A DNA stretch of 64,000 bases, from the NCBI GenBank assembly GCA_028281825.1, contig JANQJC010000047.1, forward strand, positions 1 through 64,000, given 5' to 3'. Both the position numbers and the translations under genes were made by a program. The notes under the pieces are model-generated. The model saw only the letters and a list, made by a program, of their open reading frames with translations. It was not told the origin of the DNA and did no database searches. Origin of the DNA: Flavobacteriales bacterium (lineage in GTDB: Bacteria > Bacteroidota > Bacteroidia > JANQJC01). Each line of letters starts with the position of its first letter. Within the stretch, counting starts at the first letter, position 1. Positions 1,637-53,949 of the stretch are shown here, one piece after another.

Positions 1637-2683
1637 ATGATAGATTACTTTGATTGCAAAATAGAGCGCGTTTCTGCTCATCAGGTTGGTAACCAAGCCA
1701 ACGAGGAGAACCTGGTGGTTTCTGAAAGCCCTATTGAAATAAGCGACAACCAACTAAAAGAAGCCCTTCTTAATTACTTCGTTACGCATTTTAGTACTGA
1801 AGAATTTTTTCAGTTTGCTCCTATTGAAGGCGACCTGAATGCCAATCCTGTTTACAAGGCTGTTACCGAAATATTGGAAGACCCAAGTACTCTGCACCAG
1901 CAATCTATTGACCTTGCAGACCGCCTGTATGAGTGCCAAAACCACCCGAACATTAAAGCAGGTGATTTTTATGTAACGCTGCTAACTGATATACAATTGG
2001 ATGGTGTGCACACTAACGCCGTTGGTTTATTCAAAGCAGAAACCAAAGATTTATTCATCAAGCTGCATACCAGCACCAACTATTTTGAATTAAGCACAGA
2101 TGTAGGCACCAGAACCAGCAAGCTTGACAAAGGCTGCCTCGTGTTTAATACTAACAAGGCTTCAGGATATAAAGTATGTGTGATAGATAAATCAAACAAA
2201 ATAACTGAGGCACAATACTGGAAAGAAGAATTCTTGAATACTAAGCCCTGTAATGATGATTTTCACAACACACAAACCTTTATGAAGGTGACCAAGGATT
2301 TTGTGACCAAACAAATGCCCAAGCAGTTTGAAATGGACAAGACAGATCAGGCAGACCTACTCAACCGTTCAATAGACTTTTTCAAGAGCAACCAACAATT
2401 CAACGACCAGCAATTTGGAAACGAAATTTTTGAAGATGAGCAGGTAATCAATGCTTTCCATCGTTTTAAGAATGATTTTCAGGAAGAAAAAGAAGTAGAG
2501 TTGGCTCAAGATTTTGGAATCTCCGCCCCTGCGGTACAAAAAAACCAAAGGGTTTTTAAAAGCGTTATCAAGCTGGATAAGAATTTCCACATATACGTGC
2601 ATGGCGACAAAAAATTGATTGAACGTGGTGTGGATGAAATGGGTAGAAAGTTTTACAAAGTATATTATCACGAAGAGACTTAA
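1637..2683 (+). CDS. nucleoid-associated protein, NdpA/YejK family
   Basis: Cytoplasmic, 348 residues with no signal peptide, close to the usual length of the 37-kDa nucleoid-associated protein family (PF04245). Characteristic stretches are an N-terminal region with a conserved FF(Q)F..I segment, the central DILTDIQLDG-like strand (here LLTDIQLDG) and the C-terminal IKLDKNFHIYV followed by a G-rich YKVYY end. Family members associate with the bacterial nucleoid, but their biochemical role is poorly known. The gene is monocistronic-looking: a divergent lipoprotein gene lies upstream and a stable hairpin (2696-2714) follows 12 bases after the stop. The ATG at 1637 is the first in frame. Confidence 0.85.
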   Translation: MIDYFDCKIERVSAHQVGNQANEENLVVSESPIEISDNQLKEALLNYFVTHFSTEEFFQFAPIEGDLNANPVYKAVTEILEDPSTLHQQSIDLADRLYECQNHPNIKAGDFYVTLLTDIQLDGVHTNAVGLFKAETKDLFIKLHTSTNYFELSTDVGTRTSKLDKGCLVFNTNKASGYKVCVIDKSNKITEAQYWKEEFLNTKPCNDDFHNTQTFMKVTKDFVTKQMPKQFEMDKTDQADLLNRSIDFFKSNQQFNDQQFGNEIFEDEQVINAFHRFKNDFQEEKEVELAQDFGISAPAVQKNQRVFKSVIKLDKNFHIYVHGDKKLIERGVDEMGRKFYKVYYHEET

Positions 2684-2695
2684 ACCCCTCCTAAA

Positions 2696-2714
2696 TCCTC
2701 CCCCAAGGGGAGGA
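2696..2714 (+). terminator. GC-rich hairpin just after ndpA (possible terminator or dispersed repeat)
   Basis: Perfect 8-bp stem tcctcccc / ggggagga with a 3-base loop, 12 bases after the ndpA stop. No T-run follows. The surrounding text (cccctcctaaatcctccccc) looks like a short palindromic repeat I associate with gene ends in many Bacteroidota genomes, so it may be a dispersed element rather than an intrinsic terminator. Confidence 0.5.
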
Positions 2715-2771
2715 CTTATAGCTGCATTTTTGTATTATTTTCCACACTTTTGCAGGAAATCATACTACTAC

Positions 2772-4841
2772 ATGAGATTTTGTTTACTAATTCTTTTATT
2801 AGGTATCTGTGCTTTTAATCTAAGCGCTCAACTAAACCCTGAAAACATTACAATAGTTAGAGATAGTTTTGGGGTGCCTCATATCTACGCTCCTACTGAT
2901 GCCGAAGTGGCTTATGGGCTAGCATGGGCACATAGTGAAGACGATTTCCCCTCTATTTTTCAACTGATGCTTATTGGAAAGCACAGGCAAGGAGAGCTAT
3001 TGGGAGCAGACGGAGCCAAAACCGATTTTTTTGCCCAATACCTAAAAGCTGAAGAACGAGTAGACAAAAACTATGATAAACTGCCAGCGAGCTACCGCAA
3101 ACTGATAGAAGGCTATGCTGCTGGGGTAAATGCCTATGCGGCAGCCCATCCCAAAGAGGTGAAAGTAAAAGGTGTTTTTCCATTGACAGGAAAAGACCTC
3201 GAAAAAACCTATTCAATTGTAATTTGTGCACTAACAGGCGCACCTATGGCCATAGGAGCTGTACTTGAGGGGAAGAACTACGAGTCGGCAGTAAGTGTAG
3301 GCTCTAACGGTTTTGCTGCTAACTCCAAGTTCACAGCCGATGGGAGAACTTATTTAGTGAACGACCCACATTGGCTGATAGATGGCCCTATCACTTTTTA
3401 TGAATGCCACTTGCACAGTGATGAAGGTTGGAACATCAGTGGTGGCGTTTATCCAGGTATACCCATGCCAGCCAATGCCCTTACGCCCAACCTGGGTTGG
3501 AACCTGCCATTTAATTTTCCCGACTTGATTGATATATATGAATTGGAAATCAATCCAGAGAATAAACACCAATACAAGTTTGATGATAAGTGGCTAGACT
3601 TAGAGGTGAGGAAGATTCCCTTGAAAGTGAAGATGGGTTTCCTGAAATTGAAAGTGAAAAAGAAGGCATACTGGACGGTTTATGGCCCTGCTATTGAAAC
3701 TAATGACGGCAAAATAATGGCTACCCGCTTTGCTGCCAATCAAGAAATTGGGGCGTTGAACCAGCTTTATGAAATGGGTAAATCAAAAAACCTAAGTGAG
3801 TTTAAACAAGCTGTGAAGAATGGAAAAATGCCGCTATTCAATATCGTATATGCAGATAAAGAGGACAACATTTTTTACATCTACAAAGCGCTTATACCCA
3901 AGAGAAACCCCGACTATAATTGGCAAAAGGCCTTGCCCGGAAATACCAGCAAAACCCTTTGGACAGAATTTTTGGCTTATGAAGACCTTCCACAGGTTAC
4001 TAACCCTGAAAGTGGATACATCTACAATATGAACAGTTCACCCTATTTCTGTACTGGTGAAAACGAATGCCCCGAGCACGGGCCTTATCACAAAACAGGT
4101 GGTATTTATATTGACCCTGAAAATGACAGAAGTGTGCGTTTCCGTGAGCTGGTGGGTGGTATAGATAAAATAGACTACCCTACCTTCAAAAGCCTGAAGT
4201 ATGATATTGAATATCCTGAAAAAAGTGATGGTGCCTTTGATTTCACCTTGCAAAAAATGCAACAATTGGATAAAAAGAAATATCCTAAAATTGCTGATGC
4301 CCTTGCCCATCTTAAGGCCTGTAAACTAGATGGACACCTTGAGAACAAACATACGGCTCTCTATCTTTTTGCATTGGGATATCTGTTTGAAAAAGTGGAT
4401 GCCAACAAGAGGACTTTTATCATGAACGGCTTTCCTTATGATGAAGAATTATTTGCGGATGCAGTAGCTCACGCTAAAAAAGTGATGCTAAAGCATCATG
4501 GGAGATTGGATGTACCTTTGAGTAAAGTTCAATTCTTGGTGAGGGGCGATAAAAAAGTGGCTATCCCTGGCTTACCACAAAATCTTAACTCGGTAGAAGG
4601 GGAAGCAACTAAAGATGGTTTGATTAAAGTTTATAGAAATAGTTCCTTCCTTCAATTCGCCAAGTATAGTAAAGATGGTATTGAAGCTGAGAGTATCCAT
4701 ACCTATGGTAATTCAAAACGCCATGATAGTCAGCATTATGATGACCAAATGGAAATGCACTCTGAGTTCAAGACCAAAAAAGTGATATTTGACAAAGAGC
4801 AGGTATTAAAGAAAGCTGAGAGTATATATCATCCGCAGTGA
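2772..4841 (+). CDS. penicillin acylase family N-terminal-nucleophile hydrolase
   Basis: A 689-residue exported precursor. The signal peptide (1-19, ending NLSAQ) is followed by NITIVRDSFGVPHIYA, the family's typical first strand. The self-processing site is Gly177-Ser178-Asn179 (SVGSNGFAANS), so Ser178 would become the N-terminal nucleophile of the beta chain after excision of a spacer. LVNDPHW follows, matching the conserved NDPHL element. Members hydrolyse amide bonds of beta-lactams, acyl-homoserine lactones or other N-acyl compounds; the substrate here cannot be told from sequence. An in-frame open stretch runs upstream to 2619 inside ndpA, but the ATG at 2772 is the one that gives a signal peptide. 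The location should be periplasmic. Confidence 0.88.
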   Translation: MRFCLLILLLGICAFNLSAQLNPENITIVRDSFGVPHIYAPTDAEVAYGLAWAHSEDDFPSIFQLMLIGKHRQGELLGADGAKTDFFAQYLKAEERVDKNYDKLPASYRKLIEGYAAGVNAYAAAHPKEVKVKGVFPLTGKDLEKTYSIVICALTGAPMAIGAVLEGKNYESAVSVGSNGFAANSKFTADGRTYLVNDPHWLIDGPITFYECHLHSDEGWNISGGVYPGIPMPANALTPNLGWNLPFNFPDLIDIYELEINPENKHQYKFDDKWLDLEVRKIPLKVKMGFLKLKVKKKAYWTVYGPAIETNDGKIMATRFAANQEIGALNQLYEMGKSKNLSEFKQAVKNGKMPLFNIVYADKEDNIFYIYKALIPKRNPDYNWQKALPGNTSKTLWTEFLAYEDLPQVTNPESGYIYNMNSSPYFCTGENECPEHGPYHKTGGIYIDPENDRSVRFRELVGGIDKIDYPTFKSLKYDIEYPEKSDGAFDFTLQKMQQLDKKKYPKIADALAHLKACKLDGHLENKHTALYLFALGYLFEKVDANKRTFIMNGFPYDEELFADAVAHAKKVMLKHHGRLDVPLSKVQFLVRGDKKVAIPGLPQNLNSVEGEATKDGLIKVYRNSSFLQFAKYSKDGIEAESIHTYGNSKRHDSQHYDDQMEMHSEFKTKKVIFDKEQVLKKAESIYHPQ

Positions 4842-10037: not shown

Positions 10038-10799
10038 CTATCTGCCAGCAATAACCATTCTCTTAGTGTAAGCTTTTTCACCGTTGCTTACAGTGTACAT
10101 GTAAACACCTGGAGAGTGAGAAAGAGCGTTGAATACGAATTTATTCATACCAACTTCTGACATTGCTTTCTCTTGGTAAACCACTTTACCTAGCACGTCA
10201 AATACTGTCAACTCAACTTCTTCATTAATAGGAGTAGAATAGTTGATAGTGGTTGTTCCCTCAAATGGGTTAGGAACGTTTTGACCTACCTGGAATTCGT
10301 TAGTATTGAATACTTCAGTAACACCAACAGGCATAGCAACAATTTTGTAACCTTCTACAGTAGTAGCAGGGCCATCAAAATCACCGATAAGGCTATGGTA
10401 TACGTTTGGAGTTACATGCACAACCAGGTCGTAAGTAGCTTCTGTAGTTAAAGCCGGACCTGAAAGCAGGATACAACCAGTGCCACCGCCAGGGAACTTA
10501 CAATCAGATGGATTACAAGCATAGGTAAAACCAGCAGGTAAACCTTCCACAGAGTCAGCAAGGAAATAGTTAATATCCAAAGTAAGTGTACCGAAACCAG
10601 GAACATCAGTGGTTGTATCATTAGGCATTACAATTTGGATAACAGTGCTGTAAGATAGTCCAATGTACGCAGGTGGTAAATTTTCTAGCGTGTCAGGATA
10701 GATACCTACCTCAGTCTCTGAAGTTGGTGTACATTGAGCAATTGCAGCTGAAACACCAAAGATTGCAACTACAAATAAAGAAAGTAACTTTTTCATCAT
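10038..10799 (-). CDS. T9SS type A cargo protein, paralogue 1
   Basis: 253 residues: signal peptide (1-21, AAIAQ), Ig-like domain with GLPAGFTYACNPSDCKFPGGGTGCILLSGP (three cysteines matching paralogue 2, plus CTP right after the signal peptide), and a T9SS type A domain (about 168-253: NVPNPFEGTTTINYSTP, VFDVLGKVVYQE, SPGVYMYTVSNGEKAYTKRMVI). The role is unknown; a cell-surface or secreted location is expected. ATG codons at 10799 and 10796 are both usable. It lies directly after the STAS gene. No perfect -7 box is seen upstream, only TATCTTTA-like text. Confidence 0.82.
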   Translation of the reverse strand: MMKKLLSLFVVAIFGVSAAIAQCTPTSETEVGIYPDTLENLPPAYIGLSYSTVIQIVMPNDTTTDVPGFGTLTLDINYFLADSVEGLPAGFTYACNPSDCKFPGGGTGCILLSGPALTTEATYDLVVHVTPNVYHSLIGDFDGPATTVEGYKIVAMPVGVTEVFNTNEFQVGQNVPNPFEGTTTINYSTPINEEVELTVFDVLGKVVYQEKAMSEVGMNKFVFNALSHSPGVYMYTVSNGEKAYTKRMVIAGR

Positions 10800-12945: not shown

Positions 12946-15084
12946 TTATTCAGCATCTTCGTCTTTTGACTTTTTACCTTTCTTTTCACTTTCTTCTAAT
13001 TGTGATTTCAATTGAGATAATGCGTCCAAATCACCTAGGGTGGTTTTTTCGATATTATCTTTCATTTTCTTCACAGCTTTGCTCGTGCTCTTAGCAGCAG
13101 CTCTTCTTTGCTTAGTTTCTTCAACTTTAGCTTCGTGAGCTACATCTTCAAATATACGGCTGTGCGAAACGATGATTTTCTTTTGGTCCTTGTTAAACTC
13201 AAGGATTTTGAAATCCAGTGTTTCATCTACTTCAGCTTGCTTGCCGTCTTCTTTATTAAGATGCTTTTTAGGAGCAAAACCTTCCATACCGTACGGTAAT
13301 GAAACTACACCACCTTTATCGTTCTTCTCGGTAATAGTACCTTGATGAACTGAGTCGATAGTGAAGATTTCCTCGAACACATCCCATGGATTTTCTTCCA
13401 ATTGTTTGTGGCCAAGGCTTAGTTTGCGGTTCTCAACATCGATATCAAGTACTACAATCTCCATATCATCACCCACGTTGCAGAACTCAGCAGGATGCTT
13501 CACTTTCTTAGACCAAGATAGGTCGCTGATGTGAACCAAACCGTCTACACCTTCTTCCAACTCTACGAATACACCAAAGTTGGTAAAGTTCATCACTTTA
13601 CCAGTGTGCTGGCTACCTACGGGATATTTAGTTGTGATATCTGTCCATGGATCTGGTGCCAATTGCTTGATACCCAATGACATTTTTCTCTCTTCTCTAT
13701 CAAGTGTCAATACCTGAGCCTCAACCTCGTCGCCTACCTTAAGGAAGTCCGAAGCGCTGCGCAAGTGCTGTGACCATGACATTTCAGAAACGTGGATGAG
13801 ACCTTCAACGCCAGGAGCTACTTCAACAAAAGCACCGTAGTCAGCAAGAACCACTACTTTACCTTTCACATTGTCGCCCACTTTAAGTTCGGTATCCAAT
13901 TTCTCCCATGGGTGTTCAGTCAATTGCTTAAGACCGAGGGCAATTCTTTTCTTGTCATCATCAAAGTCAAGGATAACCACATTGATTTTCTCATCCAGGG
14001 TAACGATTTCCTCTGGGTGGTTGATGCGTCCCCAAGATAAATCAGTGATGTGAATAAGTCCGTCCACACCTCCAAGGTCAACGAATACACCGTAAGAAGT
14101 GATATTCTTAACAGTGCCTTCAAGGATTTGACCTTTCTCCAGTTTGCTGATGATTTCTTTCTTCTGTTGCTCAAGCTCTTCCTGGATAAGTGCCTTGTGA
14201 GATACAACCACGTTTTTAAACTCGTTGTTGATTTTCACCACTTTGAACTCCATTTGCTTGCCAACATACATATCGTAGTCGCGGATAGGCTTCACATCAA
14301 TTTGCGAACCTGGCAAGAAGGCTTCGATACCGAATACATCGGCAATCAAACCACCTTTTGTGCGGCACTTGATGTAACCTGTGATTACCTCATCGTTATC
14401 AAGGGCCTTATTCACACGCTCCCAAGAGCGAAGTGCGCGAGCCTTTTTGTGAGATAGGATAAGCTGTCCGTCTTTGTCTTCTTGTTTCTCAACATACACT
14501 TCCAGTTCGTCGCCTACTGCGATATCAGGATTGTATCGTAATTCAGACAAAGGAATAACACCCTCACTCTTGTAGCCGATGTTTACCAAAAGATCTTTTT
14601 TGGTTTTGGCCACTACCTTGCCATCCAATACTTCGTGGTCGGCAATCGACTTAAGGGTTTCTTCGTAAACTTTATCCAGCCTTTCTTTTTCAGCGGCTGT
14701 ATACTGCTCACCTTTTTTGCTGATAGCACTCCAGTCAAAGTCTTCTAACTTTGGGTTAACGTTAACCGAAGGTGCTGGCTTAGTAGGCTCTGATTTTGTG
14801 GGTTCAGGTTTAGTTGGCTCAGACTTTTCAGTCTTGGCTTCTTTTTTTTCTGCCTTTTCTGCTTTGGCTTCTTCTTTAGCCTCAGCAACAGGAGCCTCTT
14901 CTACTTTCTCCCCGGTTTCAGCAACTACTTCTTCAACTTTTTCTTCTGTTTTTTCTGATTCTTCAGCAGCTTCAGTGCTTTCTTCAGTTGTAGCAGTCTC
15001 TTCGGTTTGAGTTTCTTCTGCTTTTACTTCCTCAGCAGTTGTTGTTTCTTCTACTTCGGTTTCTTTGGCTTTTTTTTCTGCCAT
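12946..15084 (-). CDS. rpsA: 30S ribosomal protein S1 with long acidic N-terminal extension
   Basis: Six S1 RNA-binding repeats occupy about residues 150-655: domains 3-5 are the most typical (ITSYGVFVDLGGVDGLIHITDLSW, ADYGAFVEVAPGVEGLIHVSEMSW, TNFGVFVELEEGVDGLVHISDLSW), while 1, 2 and 6 are more divergent, as usual. Unusually, residues 1-115 are low-complexity: Glu/Thr/Ala/Lys-rich, then near-repeats SEPTKPEPTKSEPTKPAPS. The C-terminus (about 665-712) is also charged. At 712 residues it is well above the 550-600 I expect. S1 delivers mRNA to the 30S subunit. It is monocistronic, with its own -7 box, a leader of about 105 nt and a terminator. Confidence 0.95.
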   Translation of the reverse strand: MAEKKAKETEVEETTTAEEVKAEETQTEETATTEESTEAAEESEKTEEKVEEVVAETGEKVEEAPVAEAKEEAKAEKAEKKEAKTEKSEPTKPEPTKSEPTKPAPSVNVNPKLEDFDWSAISKKGEQYTAAEKERLDKVYEETLKSIADHEVLDGKVVAKTKKDLLVNIGYKSEGVIPLSELRYNPDIAVGDELEVYVEKQEDKDGQLILSHKKARALRSWERVNKALDNDEVITGYIKCRTKGGLIADVFGIEAFLPGSQIDVKPIRDYDMYVGKQMEFKVVKINNEFKNVVVSHKALIQEELEQQKKEIISKLEKGQILEGTVKNITSYGVFVDLGGVDGLIHITDLSWGRINHPEEIVTLDEKINVVILDFDDDKKRIALGLKQLTEHPWEKLDTELKVGDNVKGKVVVLADYGAFVEVAPGVEGLIHVSEMSWSQHLRSASDFLKVGDEVEAQVLTLDREERKMSLGIKQLAPDPWTDITTKYPVGSQHTGKVMNFTNFGVFVELEEGVDGLVHISDLSWSKKVKHPAEFCNVGDDMEIVVLDIDVENRKLSLGHKQLEENPWDVFEEIFTIDSVHQGTITEKNDKGGVVSLPYGMEGFAPKKHLNKEDGKQAEVDETLDFKILEFNKDQKKIIVSHSRIFEDVAHEAKVEETKQRRAAAKSTSKAVKKMKDNIEKTTLGDLDALSQLKSQLEESEKKGKKSKDEDAE

Positions 15085-48834: not shown

Positions 48835-48937
48835 CTTTTTAGTGCTTTTTTGAATTGGCGAAGGTAAGATTTATTTTTAGAGAACTAATGAAGTCAATGA
48901 ATGATACATAATCAATTAGTATTCTATAATATCATCA

Positions 48938-50539
48938 TTATTCTTCCTTTCCATATTCCTTCACTCCAGCTTTTTTAAGAGCCCTTATGTGACCATCATT
49001 ATCATCATGCATCTTATTATACCTCTTTCTTAGAACTTCTGTGTCTATTACCTTAAGATATATGCTTAATCTACAATGCTCTATCCATCGTTCAATTAAA
49101 TGTAAAGTTTCTGGCTTTATTTTGAAATTTTCCGTTCCATCGGTTATTATATACATTTTAAAACTCTCATAATCATTCCACTTTTTTTCAAGCAAGGTAA
49201 GTGCCTTTTCAATGGCTTTATCAAGTGTTGAAAGTCTATTTACATCTAAAGGCTTAAACTCATGAAAATAACCACTTTGATTCTTAACACGATATGCACC
49301 AATAACTCCCTTCGGATAGTTTAATTCGATTCTAGGCACAAGGGTATCTGAAAGAATTATTTCGTTGCGTATTTTCTCCAATTCAATCCATCTCTTTGGT
49401 TCATAATAATACATTGAAGGAGTACTATCTAAAACAAATAGATTAAAAAGGTGCCCTAATGGCGCGCAGTGCGCATTCTCATCCATCAATTCACAATCAA
49501 TCCTCTCAACACCCTTACTATGGCTAAGGAATAAAGTATCCCCTAGGGTTAGTAATTTATATGGCTCATCGGTTAGGTTTAGTATTGACTTGTCACTATG
49601 AAAAGCACCAGTTGTGAGATTATATCTGGACAACCCAGAGTTTCTTGAAATTATCCATATATATTGATTGATCTTTTTCATATCAAACACTTTGTCTAAA
49701 AAAGGATAATCGCAGCAGGGCAATTTTTTTACAGGCCTCCATTTTTTATTTGAAAACTCTATCAAACCACCCATGGCACACAATAAATACTCGCTTTTCT
49801 CTTGGTTTGAGGGAATCACAATAGCGGATGTAATTGTACTTTTAGCTCTGTTGAGTCTTTTTATTTTATACTTAGTAAACTCTTTTTCGCTCTTTTCTTT
49901 GTTGTTATCTTTGTTTTTTGATGAAAACAGTTTGTACTTTGGTTTTAATCTAAAAACCCCATCGTCACAAACTATAATTTGAGATTTTTGAAACTCATAT
50001 AAACTATAAAAATCACCTTGACCATAGTACCCCCTAACATCCATATAATCAACTTCAATTTCCTTTCTTGAAGGATAAAATTCACTCTTTTCACACTCAA
50101 ACAATCCTCTATTAGTGCATATGTACATCTTAGTATGTTTACTGAAATAAACTGAATTAACAATTACTGAGTTAATTACTTTATCTGGATATTTAAAGTT
50201 TATCCTAGTTGTATCTACGCTATTGTCTTCATTATACCAAGTAATTCTCATCGATGTTGTGATTGCAAATGGAGGGAGGTTGCCACTATTCACCATATTA
50301 CCATGATTATAATATACATAATCCATCCCAGGTTCCTCTATTAACCAGTCAATCTCGTCGAGAGTGTCAGCACTTTTCATAATCCCGCCTGAAACACCAA
50401 AAAAGACTTCACTTCCTTGTGGCATTGTAAAACTAGCGTATAAAGAGCTAACAGGTTTATATATCCAATTCTGGCTAATGCAAATAAAAGGGGTTAGGAT
50501 GCAAAACTCTAACATCAGAAGAAGTAGTTTAATCAACAT
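48938..50539 (-). CDS. secreted protein with possible beta-propeller and C-terminal VWA domain, unknown
   Basis: 533 residues from the ATG at 50539. N-terminal hydrophobic signal (about 1-23). Residues about 25-360 contain repeated short beta-strand blocks with aromatic or Gly turns (e.g. SKHTKMYICTNRGLFEC, KSQIIVCDDGVFRLK, KSEYLLCAMGGLIEF, NQYIWIISRNSGLSRY, GDTLFLSHSKGVERI), which suggest a propeller. A von Willebrand A domain follows (about 365-505) with a complete MIDAS: Asp371-x-Thr373-x-Ser375 (VLDSTPSM), Thr438 (RLSTLDKA) and Asp467 (IITDGTEN). I know no family with this pairing. It is the last gene of a three-gene cassette, 10 bases after the coiled-coil gene. Confidence 0.7.
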   Translation of the reverse strand: MLIKLLLLMLEFCILTPFICISQNWIYKPVSSLYASFTMPQGSEVFFGVSGGIMKSADTLDEIDWLIEEPGMDYVYYNHGNMVNSGNLPPFAITTSMRITWYNEDNSVDTTRINFKYPDKVINSVIVNSVYFSKHTKMYICTNRGLFECEKSEFYPSRKEIEVDYMDVRGYYGQGDFYSLYEFQKSQIIVCDDGVFRLKPKYKLFSSKNKDNNKEKSEKEFTKYKIKRLNRAKSTITSAIVIPSNQEKSEYLLCAMGGLIEFSNKKWRPVKKLPCCDYPFLDKVFDMKKINQYIWIISRNSGLSRYNLTTGAFHSDKSILNLTDEPYKLLTLGDTLFLSHSKGVERIDCELMDENAHCAPLGHLFNLFVLDSTPSMYYYEPKRWIELEKIRNEIILSDTLVPRIELNYPKGVIGAYRVKNQSGYFHEFKPLDVNRLSTLDKAIEKALTLLEKKWNDYESFKMYIITDGTENFKIKPETLHLIERWIEHCRLSIYLKVIDTEVLRKRYNKMHDDNDGHIRALKKAGVKEYGKEE

Positions 50540-50549
50540 CAAAATAGAG

Positions 50550-51476
50550 TTATAAACTAAACTTACTTTTCGTCATAAACATTAGATATAATTCTTTATC
50601 CGCATCACTATTACCTGAAGTTGTAGGAGTTATCTCTACTCGGTATTTCTTTCCTCTTTTGAGCCATTTTCGACGATTTGTATTTTTGAAATCATATCCA
50701 AATCGGCTTTTAGCAAAGCTTGTCGGTTTAGCATCAACTCCTTCATTCACTGGCTGCTTTGAATTATTATCAATTAAACTAATACCAAATATCCCAGAGA
50801 AATTCAAATCACATGTCTCAAATTCAACTCTTATTATGTCTAACCTTTTTGGATTAAAGTCATTTTTCTCTTTCAAGTTAATCCACATCTTATTTCTACC
50901 CCGCTTATAATACCCCAACAATTTAAAAGAGCTGTTCATACATTCAGAACGAGATTCCATTAACTCCTTTTTAGTCTTTTCTAAAGCATCTTGCAATGAA
51001 TCATTTGTTCTGGCACTTTTCTCTAATTTATACTTAAACATCACAAGCTCTTGCTTCAGTTCCACTATTTCTATTCTAGCATTGCTTAGCTCATCTTTAC
51101 AATTGTTCAGATTTTCTCGAAGAGCATCCATTTCATCCCCTAACATACTTATCAAATCTTCTTTATAAAGTATGATACCTATTAAACTGTCTTGTTTCCT
51201 TCTATGCTTATCTATTTGATAATTCAGACCAGCGATTTCCTTTTCATGTATTAATCTTTCATTTTTAAACTCACCACCCAATGTGAAGTATTTCTCTTTC
51301 CACTCAGTCACCTGATCCAATAGCTCATCTCTATCTTGAGTTATCTCACCTCTTGTCAAATAATCTGCAGCGGACTTGATACTTTCATTAATATCAATCA
51401 TCTGAGCAGCAACCTCCTTAACAAATAGAAGTTGGATAAACAGTAGAATAATATATTTGAATCTATGTGTGCTCAT
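50550..51476 (-). CDS. periplasmic coiled-coil protein of the three-gene cassette, unknown
   Basis: 308 residues. Signal peptide 1-25 (EVAAQ). A long coiled coil runs from about 45 to 185 (heptad-rich: HEKEIAGLNYQIDKHRRKQDSL, DALRENLNNCKDELSNARIEIVELKQEL, NDSLQDALEKTKKELMESRSEC). A compact C-terminal domain (about 190-305) has alternating beta strands (DIIRVEFETCDLNFSGIFGISLID, YRVEITPTTSGNSDADKELYLMFM). Its ATG overlaps the stop of the upstream gene by 4 bases, so translation is coupled. The A+T content is visibly higher than in accA or ispE. No family is recognised. Confidence 0.68.
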   Translation of the reverse strand: MSTHRFKYIILLFIQLLFVKEVAAQMIDINESIKSAADYLTRGEITQDRDELLDQVTEWKEKYFTLGGEFKNERLIHEKEIAGLNYQIDKHRRKQDSLIGIILYKEDLISMLGDEMDALRENLNNCKDELSNARIEIVELKQELVMFKYKLEKSARTNDSLQDALEKTKKELMESRSECMNSSFKLLGYYKRGRNKMWINLKEKNDFNPKRLDIIRVEFETCDLNFSGIFGISLIDNNSKQPVNEGVDAKPTSFAKSRFGYDFKNTNRRKWLKRGKKYRVEITPTTSGNSDADKELYLMFMTKSKFSL

Positions 51477-51847
51477 TCACTTAAAATTGCTTCCGATTTC
51501 TCAACAAGATTATCTAGTTTCTTATTAGCTTTTTCAAAAATTGCTTCATTACAACCATGCTTATTAAATTCTCTTAAATAATCCACTCCTATTGCTTCAT
51601 GTGCCCTTTGATTAGCTTGAATTAAGTTGACTTCAAACGGATCTGAACTTCGTGAAATTAGCTCTGTAAAAATCGTCTGTTGATCCTGATATCTGCTTTC
51701 AAAATCATTTATACACCTCTTGGAGGGATTAACCCAATCAATTATTAATATTACCAAAATATTGACAATTACTGCTGAAACTATTGCGTAGACAAAGCCT
51801 TTTAATAATTTCTTTCCAAACTCTTTGTTAATATTTACCACTGCCAT
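51473..51847 (-). CDS. small membrane-anchored protein heading the three-gene cassette, unknown
   Basis: 124 residues. A positively charged N-terminus (KEFGKKLLKG) then one membrane helix (about 17-37, FVYAIVSAVIVNILVILIIDW), so the C-terminal 85 residues should face the periplasm. That part is helical, with Cys44 and Cys99 that might form a disulfide. There are no enzyme motifs. It is first in the cassette, 40 nt after the predicted transcription start, and overlaps the coiled-coil gene (ATGA). Confidence 0.65.
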   Translation of the reverse strand: MAVVNINKEFGKKLLKGFVYAIVSAVIVNILVILIIDWVNPSKRCINDFESRYQDQQTIFTELISRSSDPFEVNLIQANQRAHEAIGVDYLREFNKHGCNEAIFEKANKKLDNLVEKSEAILSE

Positions 51848-51891
51848 TATTTCAATTAAGGTTTATTAAGAAAAACAACAATAAACAATAA

Positions 51892-51922
51892 CAAAAATAT
51901 GCAAGTTTTTATTATTCACAAA
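51892..51922 (-). promoter_or_regulatory. Bacteroidota-type promoter of the three-gene cassette
   Basis: On the minus strand, TTTG (51922-51919), a 19-base spacer, then TATTTTTG (51899-51892). Both boxes and the spacing are consensus. No second promoter is seen within the cassette. Confidence 0.7.
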
Positions 51923-52003
51923 TTTTGTTGATTCTTGTTTATTAAATTACAAGGATTATTATAAGTTATATGAATTACACTTACTTTGTATCAAGATAGC
52001 GTC

Positions 52004-52825: not shown

Positions 52826-52884
52826 TGTTTATAATATATCACCCAAAAGAGCGTTAGGGAAACCGAAAATCCTTTTCTTTGCGA

Positions 52885-53949
52885 ATGAATATGAAATACT
52901 GGCTCTACTCTATTCTATTTCTCATAAGTCCTTTTGCCCTCCACGCTCAAACTGGGGGTAATACAACCTACGACTTCTTAGAGTTGATTAGTTCACCGCG
53001 AGTAGCAGCGTTAGGCGGCAACCTGAATTGCGTGAAGGATGACGACCTAAATCAATTTGCTGAGAACCCTGCCCTGCTCAATGAAGAAATGCACAACCAA
53101 TTGGTATTAAACTATACCAACTATTTTGCTGGGATTAATTATGGTTATGCAGCCTATTCAAGAAGCTATGATAGTATAGGGAGTTTTGCAGCAGGACTAC
53201 AATATATCAACTATGGCAATTTTACAGAAGCTGACTTGGCTGGTAATGTATTGGGTGAATTCAATGCGGGTGAATACGCTTTACACCTTGGATACTCCAA
53301 AACATGGGACTCCACATTTTCTATAGGTGTCAACCTTAAAACCATCTACTCCCAACTATATGATTTCAACTCATTGGGCTTTGCAGTGGACGTGGGTGGT
53401 ATATATCATAAGGCAGAAAGCGATTTCACGGCGGCCCTAGTAATAAGAAATGCTGGTTTCCAGGTAAAAAGCTATGTAAACGGAAACAATGAGCCGCTGC
53501 CACTGGATATACAAATTGGTATTTCGAAACGCCTTGCCCACATGCCTTTCCGTTTTTCAATCATTGCACATCACCTAAACAAACCTGATTTAAGCTACAA
53601 AGACCCAGCTCTTACTGAGACTCAAATAGACCCTCTTACTGGCGAGGAAATAGAACCGAAGAAAAGAATTGGTGATAAAATCATGAGGCATTTCATTTTC
53701 GGTGGTGAGTTTGTTCCTTCTAAAAATTTCAATATCAGAATTGGATATAACTACCTGAGAAGACAAGAACTAAAAGTTGATACAAGAACAAGCCTTGTTG
53801 GGTTTTCTTTTGGCGCAGGCATCAAAATTTCTAAATTCAAATTCAATTATGGATTGGCTAGATACCATTTGGCTGGTTCTACACATCACTTCTCTATTAG
53901 CACTAACTTAAGTGATTTCTATTCAAAATCAGAAGTATTAAATGAGTAA
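52885..53949 (+). CDS. porQ: type IX secretion system protein PorQ
   Basis: 354 residues from the ATG at 52885; a second ATG two codons later is possible. Signal peptide (about 1-22, ALHAQ), then an outer-membrane beta-barrel-type sequence with the PorQ opening YDFLELISSPRVAALGGNLNCVKDDDLNQFAENPALLN. PorQ belongs to the PorU-PorV-PorQ-PorZ attachment side of the T9SS, with a role inferred from homologues. It overlaps cmk by 8 bases, an adjacency I recall in other Bacteroidota. Seven cargo proteins in this window carry sorting domains for this system. Confidence 0.88.
   Translation: MNMKYWLYSILFLISPFALHAQTGGNTTYDFLELISSPRVAALGGNLNCVKDDDLNQFAENPALLNEEMHNQLVLNYTNYFAGINYGYAAYSRSYDSIGSFAAGLQYINYGNFTEADLAGNVLGEFNAGEYALHLGYSKTWDSTFSIGVNLKTIYSQLYDFNSLGFAVDVGGIYHKAESDFTAALVIRNAGFQVKSYVNGNNEPLPLDIQIGISKRLAHMPFRFSIIAHHLNKPDLSYKDPALTETQIDPLTGEEIEPKKRIGDKIMRHFIFGGEFVPSKNFNIRIGYNYLRRQELKVDTRTSLVGFSFGAGIKISKFKFNYGLARYHLAGSTHHFSISTNLSDFYSKSEVLNE

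Follow-up and report, generated by a model that had tools for sequence, protein, structure and literature searches.

In the membrane complex of the Bacteroidota type VI secretion system (T6SSiii), TssR is a periplasmic protein with a VWA domain, and TssQ and TssO are elongated helical proteins with a single transmembrane segment (PMC10781749). VWA domains are also found in force transducers, where the domain is tethered by a transmembrane segment and encoded beside tolQ-like genes for TolQ-like motors (PMC12204202), and they occur in conflict systems (PMC7159879). The locus described here is a cassette of three adjoining minus-strand genes (51847-48938) in a stretch of 64,000 nucleotides from a Flavobacteriales bacterium, which is referred to below as the window. 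It lies between ispE on the plus strand and accA on the minus strand, and it would encode a membrane protein, a coiled-coil protein, and a protein that combines a propeller with a VWA domain. No description of such a trio was found in the literature.

Gene 1 (51473-51847) is an ORF of 124 aa, gene 2 (50550-51476) is an ORF of 308 aa, and gene 3 (48938-50539) encodes 533 aa counted from its ATG. The stop-free stretches of genes 3, 2, and 1 are 544, 308, and 124 codons, respectively, and the longest such stretch in 1000 Markov resamples of the cassette DNA was 128 codons; in all three genes the G+C content was at its maximum at codon position 1. The stop-free stretches, set against the Markov resamples, and the position-1 peak establish that these are genuine coding genes. 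The preliminary description had pointed out an ATGA overlap and a gap of 10 bases between the genes; both are present in the sequence, and the promoter that it placed at 51892-51922 on the minus strand, in a 138-bp intergenic gap, fits the Bacteroidetes consensus (TTTG-N19-TATTTTTG). This pattern was matched 4 times in the window against an expectation of 2.4, and therefore what gives this promoter its weight is that it lies 45 bases upstream of the start codon of gene 1. No terminator was found 3' of gene 3 on the same strand and the start codon of accA is about 100 bases downstream of gene 3, so that read-through is possible and transcripts from the cassette may continue into accA. The identities of accA, gatB, ispE, porQ, cmk, and dnaX in the window were confirmed by NCBIfam, and thus the cassette is indeed flanked by two housekeeping genes. 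An Rfam search of the window gave no matches.

The G+C contents of the three cassette genes, 33.3, 32.7, and 31.2%, are the three lowest among the 43 genes of the window, the next lowest being 37.6%. The cassette is therefore A+T-rich as had been proposed, but the value of 57% given earlier for accA came from one unrepresentative line and does not hold, the whole-gene values being 42.6% for accA and 41.8% for ispE. The deviation of the cassette in codon use is moderate (z about 3) and below that of several other window genes, and for this reason a foreign origin is not provable from codon use alone. The genes at 12946-15084 and 10038-10799 deviate more than the cassette, with z values of 8.1 and 6.5, respectively, and are not low in G+C.

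The survey of the accA-ispE junction started from ispE, with which loci were recovered in 80 named records and 69 Bacteroidota genomes. In 118 loci accA was outside the recovered stretch and these are uninformative in either direction. In 29 relatives, all of them genomes from outside the order of the window organism, accA lies directly beside ispE in divergent orientation, with a median gap of 112 bp, and the gap is less than 300 bp in 26 of them; in two further loci the two genes are in tandem. The short junction is common to genomes from many families, whereas the divergent intergenic region of the window (48835-52003) is expanded by the cassette to 3,169 bp. One relative (L105) carries gatB, accA, ispE, porQ, and cmk with a gap of 104 bp between accA and ispE, which is the order of the window minus the cassette. 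The porQ gene, whose product PorQ belongs to type IX secretion (T9SS), is at 52879-53949 in the window, and in L105 it is likewise found between ispE and cmk. Larger gaps, containing unrelated sequence, were seen in 3 of the 29 relatives: a 61-aa ORF in L096 (junction at 874-1492), a 155-aa ORF for a secreted protein in L169 (junction at 3849-4491), and a 322-aa ORF for an oxidoreductase-like protein in L185 (junction at 1939-3020). These ORFs are also unrelated to each other, and because they occur there the junction seems to tolerate insertions. Given the short gap in 26 of 29 relatives and the flanks of L105, it is most likely that the short arrangement is ancestral and that the cassette was inserted later. 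Repeats flanking the cassette were short and imperfect and none was convincing as a target-site duplication.

Protein searches with each of the three genes in 395 genomes of the class Bacteroidia gave no homologue, and neither did searches with gene 3 and the C-terminal domain of gene 2 in 396 genomes of the phylum. No homologue of the cassette was found in a protein search of the order of the nearest relatives, none of genes 2 and 3 in a plasmid collection and in viral contigs, and none of gene 3 in a phage collection. When genome contigs were scanned for gene 3 by an exact short-peptide method, which detects close relatives only, there was no match. Some apparent matches were discarded: the one in L004 fell by chance on sequence that is unrelated, the one in L003 was a transposase fragment, and L007 seems to carry that element too. 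No paralogue of gene 3 was found in its own genome, and the six other VWA loci of that genome have a layout that differs from that of the cassette. The missing homologues mean that no relative is detectable at the given sensitivity and sampling, and they do not mean that the cassette is unique. Taken with the short, empty junction in relatives and the lowest G+C of the window, they bear out the earlier suggestion of an acquired system, and acquisition is the best-supported reading of the origin of the cassette.

Gene 1 has a single transmembrane segment by hydropathy (about residues 14-42) followed by about 80 residues that by inspection look helical, and its product is probably an inner-membrane anchor with the N-terminus inside. 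It has exactly two cysteines (residues 45 and 99), and as both follow the transmembrane segment a disulfide would be allowed if that part is periplasmic. It had no family matches in Pfam, NCBIfam, PADLOC, and PHROGs, and in the same collections gene 2 gave only coiled-coil noise, so that none of the three products is accounted for by a curated family. Gene 2 has a Sec signal peptide (..VAA/QM) by hydropathy and, from its heptad periodicity, a coiled coil at about residues 78-187. Its C-terminal domain (about 185-308) was modelled by single-sequence AF2 as all-beta with eight strands, at a low confidence (pLDDT 54), and the similarity of this model to CBM35-like jelly rolls in Foldseek was non-significant (best E 0.054). 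Gene 3 also has a Sec signal peptide (..CIS/QN), which is its sole hydrophobic segment. With one transmembrane segment and two Sec signal peptides, the prediction that all three products leave the cytoplasm or sit in the membrane is supported. Inspection of the secreted gene 2 and gene 3 proteins revealed no lipobox, and no T9SS C-terminal sorting domain was matched in them by Pfam or NCBIfam. The surface sensor that had been considered is therefore not supported, and a periplasmic rather than a surface location is favoured for both proteins.

The MIDAS residues D371, T373, S375, T438, and D467 that had been listed for gene 3 are all at these positions. The spacing pattern of the motif was met by 1 of 20000 shuffles, although the pattern was written after the protein had been inspected. 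With a home-built profile, made from the VWA domains of relatives, the domain at residues 356-533 scored 8.3 compared to 6.4 for the best of 2000 shuffles, and it outscored all control proteins of the window; its hhalign probability against VWA was 5-12%. The region at about residues 25-350 gave weak matches to Reg_prop proteins, and among the weak matches outside the VWA domain are four long ORFs, all of them Reg_prop by Pfam, three from other genomes and one from its own genome. The latter place (L091, on contig C78 near 87839) encodes a hybrid sensor with Reg_prop, Y_Y_Y, and histidine kinase domains; apart from gene 3 itself, it is the sole locus of the genome with weak similarity (E 0.08) to the gene 3 propeller. 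A small Reg_prop profile ranked gene 3 above 500 shuffles, but this profile is not independent because its locus was found with gene 3 as the query. In hmmscan against Pfam neither VWA nor Reg_prop was reported for gene 3, and its similarity to the Reg_prop repeat (PF07494) is sub-threshold, with no repeat above the cut-off. The single-sequence AF2 model of gene 3 (pLDDT 37) was too poor for use. As the formal thresholds were not reached, the VWA domain is assigned by motif and ranking and not by a curated model. The combination of a propeller with a VWA domain that had been proposed is thus kept for its consistent weak signals, while as a family assignment it falls below Pfam reporting; most likely gene 3 consists of a Reg_prop-like propeller and a divergent C-terminal VWA domain that both lie below formal family cut-offs.

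Our tentative proposal is that the trio is an inserted, lineage-restricted operon that encodes a periplasmic assembly for binding or sensing, made metal-dependent by the VWA domain. By comparison with relatives, the operon would have entered an ancestrally short divergent junction, and from the pattern match it would be transcribed toward accA from a Bacteroidetes-type promoter of its own. Gene 1 would anchor the assembly in the inner membrane with its tail in the periplasm, gene 2 would be a coiled-coil strut that spans the periplasm and ends in a beta-sandwich, and gene 3 would be soluble in the periplasm and use its propeller and MIDAS-containing VWA domain to bind a protein or a glycan in a metal-dependent manner. 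Since no catalytic domain is recognisable, the cassette may act by binding, and the role of a sensor, a scaffold, or a tether would suit it better than that of an enzyme or a toxin. We infer from the operon structure only that the three products belong to one system and form one complex. A more specific form of this proposal, which we consider doubtful, is that they make up a stand-alone trans-periplasmic complex of an undescribed kind, with an anchor, a strut, and a propeller-VWA head, that has spread horizontally among rare Bacteroidota and is not part of a secretion machine. Should the three products indeed form a complex, this would be a periplasmic assembly built on a VWA domain and working independently of T6SS, Bat, and Tol-type motors, and the clean placement of the cassette in a junction that is otherwise short would offer a defined before-and-after comparison for finding its role.

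It is unlikely that these are three unrelated orphan genes, acquired jointly or one after another, with no joint function. The junctions of L096, L169, and L185 do hold unrelated single ORFs, but the tight overlap and spacing, the single promoter, the matching G+C, and the targeting of all three products to the envelope speak against this; if the trio is not a complex, it would be another orphan cassette. Adhesion is a frequent role of VWA domains whose MIDAS is complete. With this and the nearby T9SS gene porQ in mind, gene 3 could be a surface adhesin that crosses the outer membrane, binds cells or matrix, and is held by the coiled-coil protein, but given that Pfam and NCBIfam scans gave no sorting domain, that inspection showed no lipobox, and that the operon has no outer-membrane barrel, we regard this as quite unlikely. 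Similarly improbable is that the operon is old in its own order, through vertical descent or through loss elsewhere, and was not recently acquired; the scope of the survey, with every compared genome from another order, would permit this, but the short junction across many families and the anomalous G+C do not fit it. The suggestion of a defence or conflict module at the envelope has in its favour that the cassette is acquired, A+T-rich, and lineage-restricted and that VWA domains are known from conflict systems (PMC7159879). It was not borne out, as PADLOC-DB models gave only the coiled-coil noise in gene 2, no effector domain (nuclease, NTPase, protease, or pore) was recognised, and the immediate neighbours include no defence genes; the lack of a recognisable catalytic domain argues in particular against a toxin or a nuclease-type module, and we hold this explanation to be still less probable. 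Least probable of all is that the cassette is related to the T6SSiii membrane complex as a diverged or repurposed form of it, with TssO/TssQ-like helical anchors and a TssR-like VWA protein, for although TssR and TssQ/TssO have such properties (PMC10781749) and hhalign sets the first-strand/MIDAS segments of TssR (L124, L125) and gene 3 opposite each other, that alignment is non-significant (P 0.27), the N-terminal domain differs, no further T6SS genes adjoin the cassette, the TssR family (PF17643) has no match in gene 3 or its genome, and the reading is largely refuted by the missing sheath (VipB/TssC), for which that genome, 96% complete, gave no match.

Compared to known systems, the proposed assembly shares with BatA/BatB a VWA domain in the bacterial envelope and differs from them in architecture and context; a separate pair of adjacent VWA genes on contig C61 of the same genome is presumably BatA/BatB. 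It also shares an envelope VWA domain with the vWA force transducers (PMC12204202), but gene 3 is soluble and has no adjoining motor gene. The cassette was rejected as a TM-tethered transducer of this kind, as the hydrophobic segment of gene 3 is its signal peptide and the neighbours are accA and ispE. The weak matches of the propeller region are to the periplasmic Reg_prop propellers of hybrid two-component systems, from which gene 3 differs in that it has no kinase, Y_Y_Y, or output domain, is fused to a VWA domain, and is below the Pfam threshold. As a Bacteroidota T6SS membrane complex proper the cassette was rejected, TssR and the sheath being missing from the genome. By analogy, its closest functional counterpart nevertheless appears to be the T6SSiii membrane complex TssNQOPR, with which it has in common one or more single-TM helical anchors and a periplasmic VWA protein encoded in one locus (PMC10781749), the difference being that gene 3 has a propeller where TssR has its D1/D3 domains. 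With low confidence as to function, the cassette can thus be placed as a variant of the envelope VWA systems.
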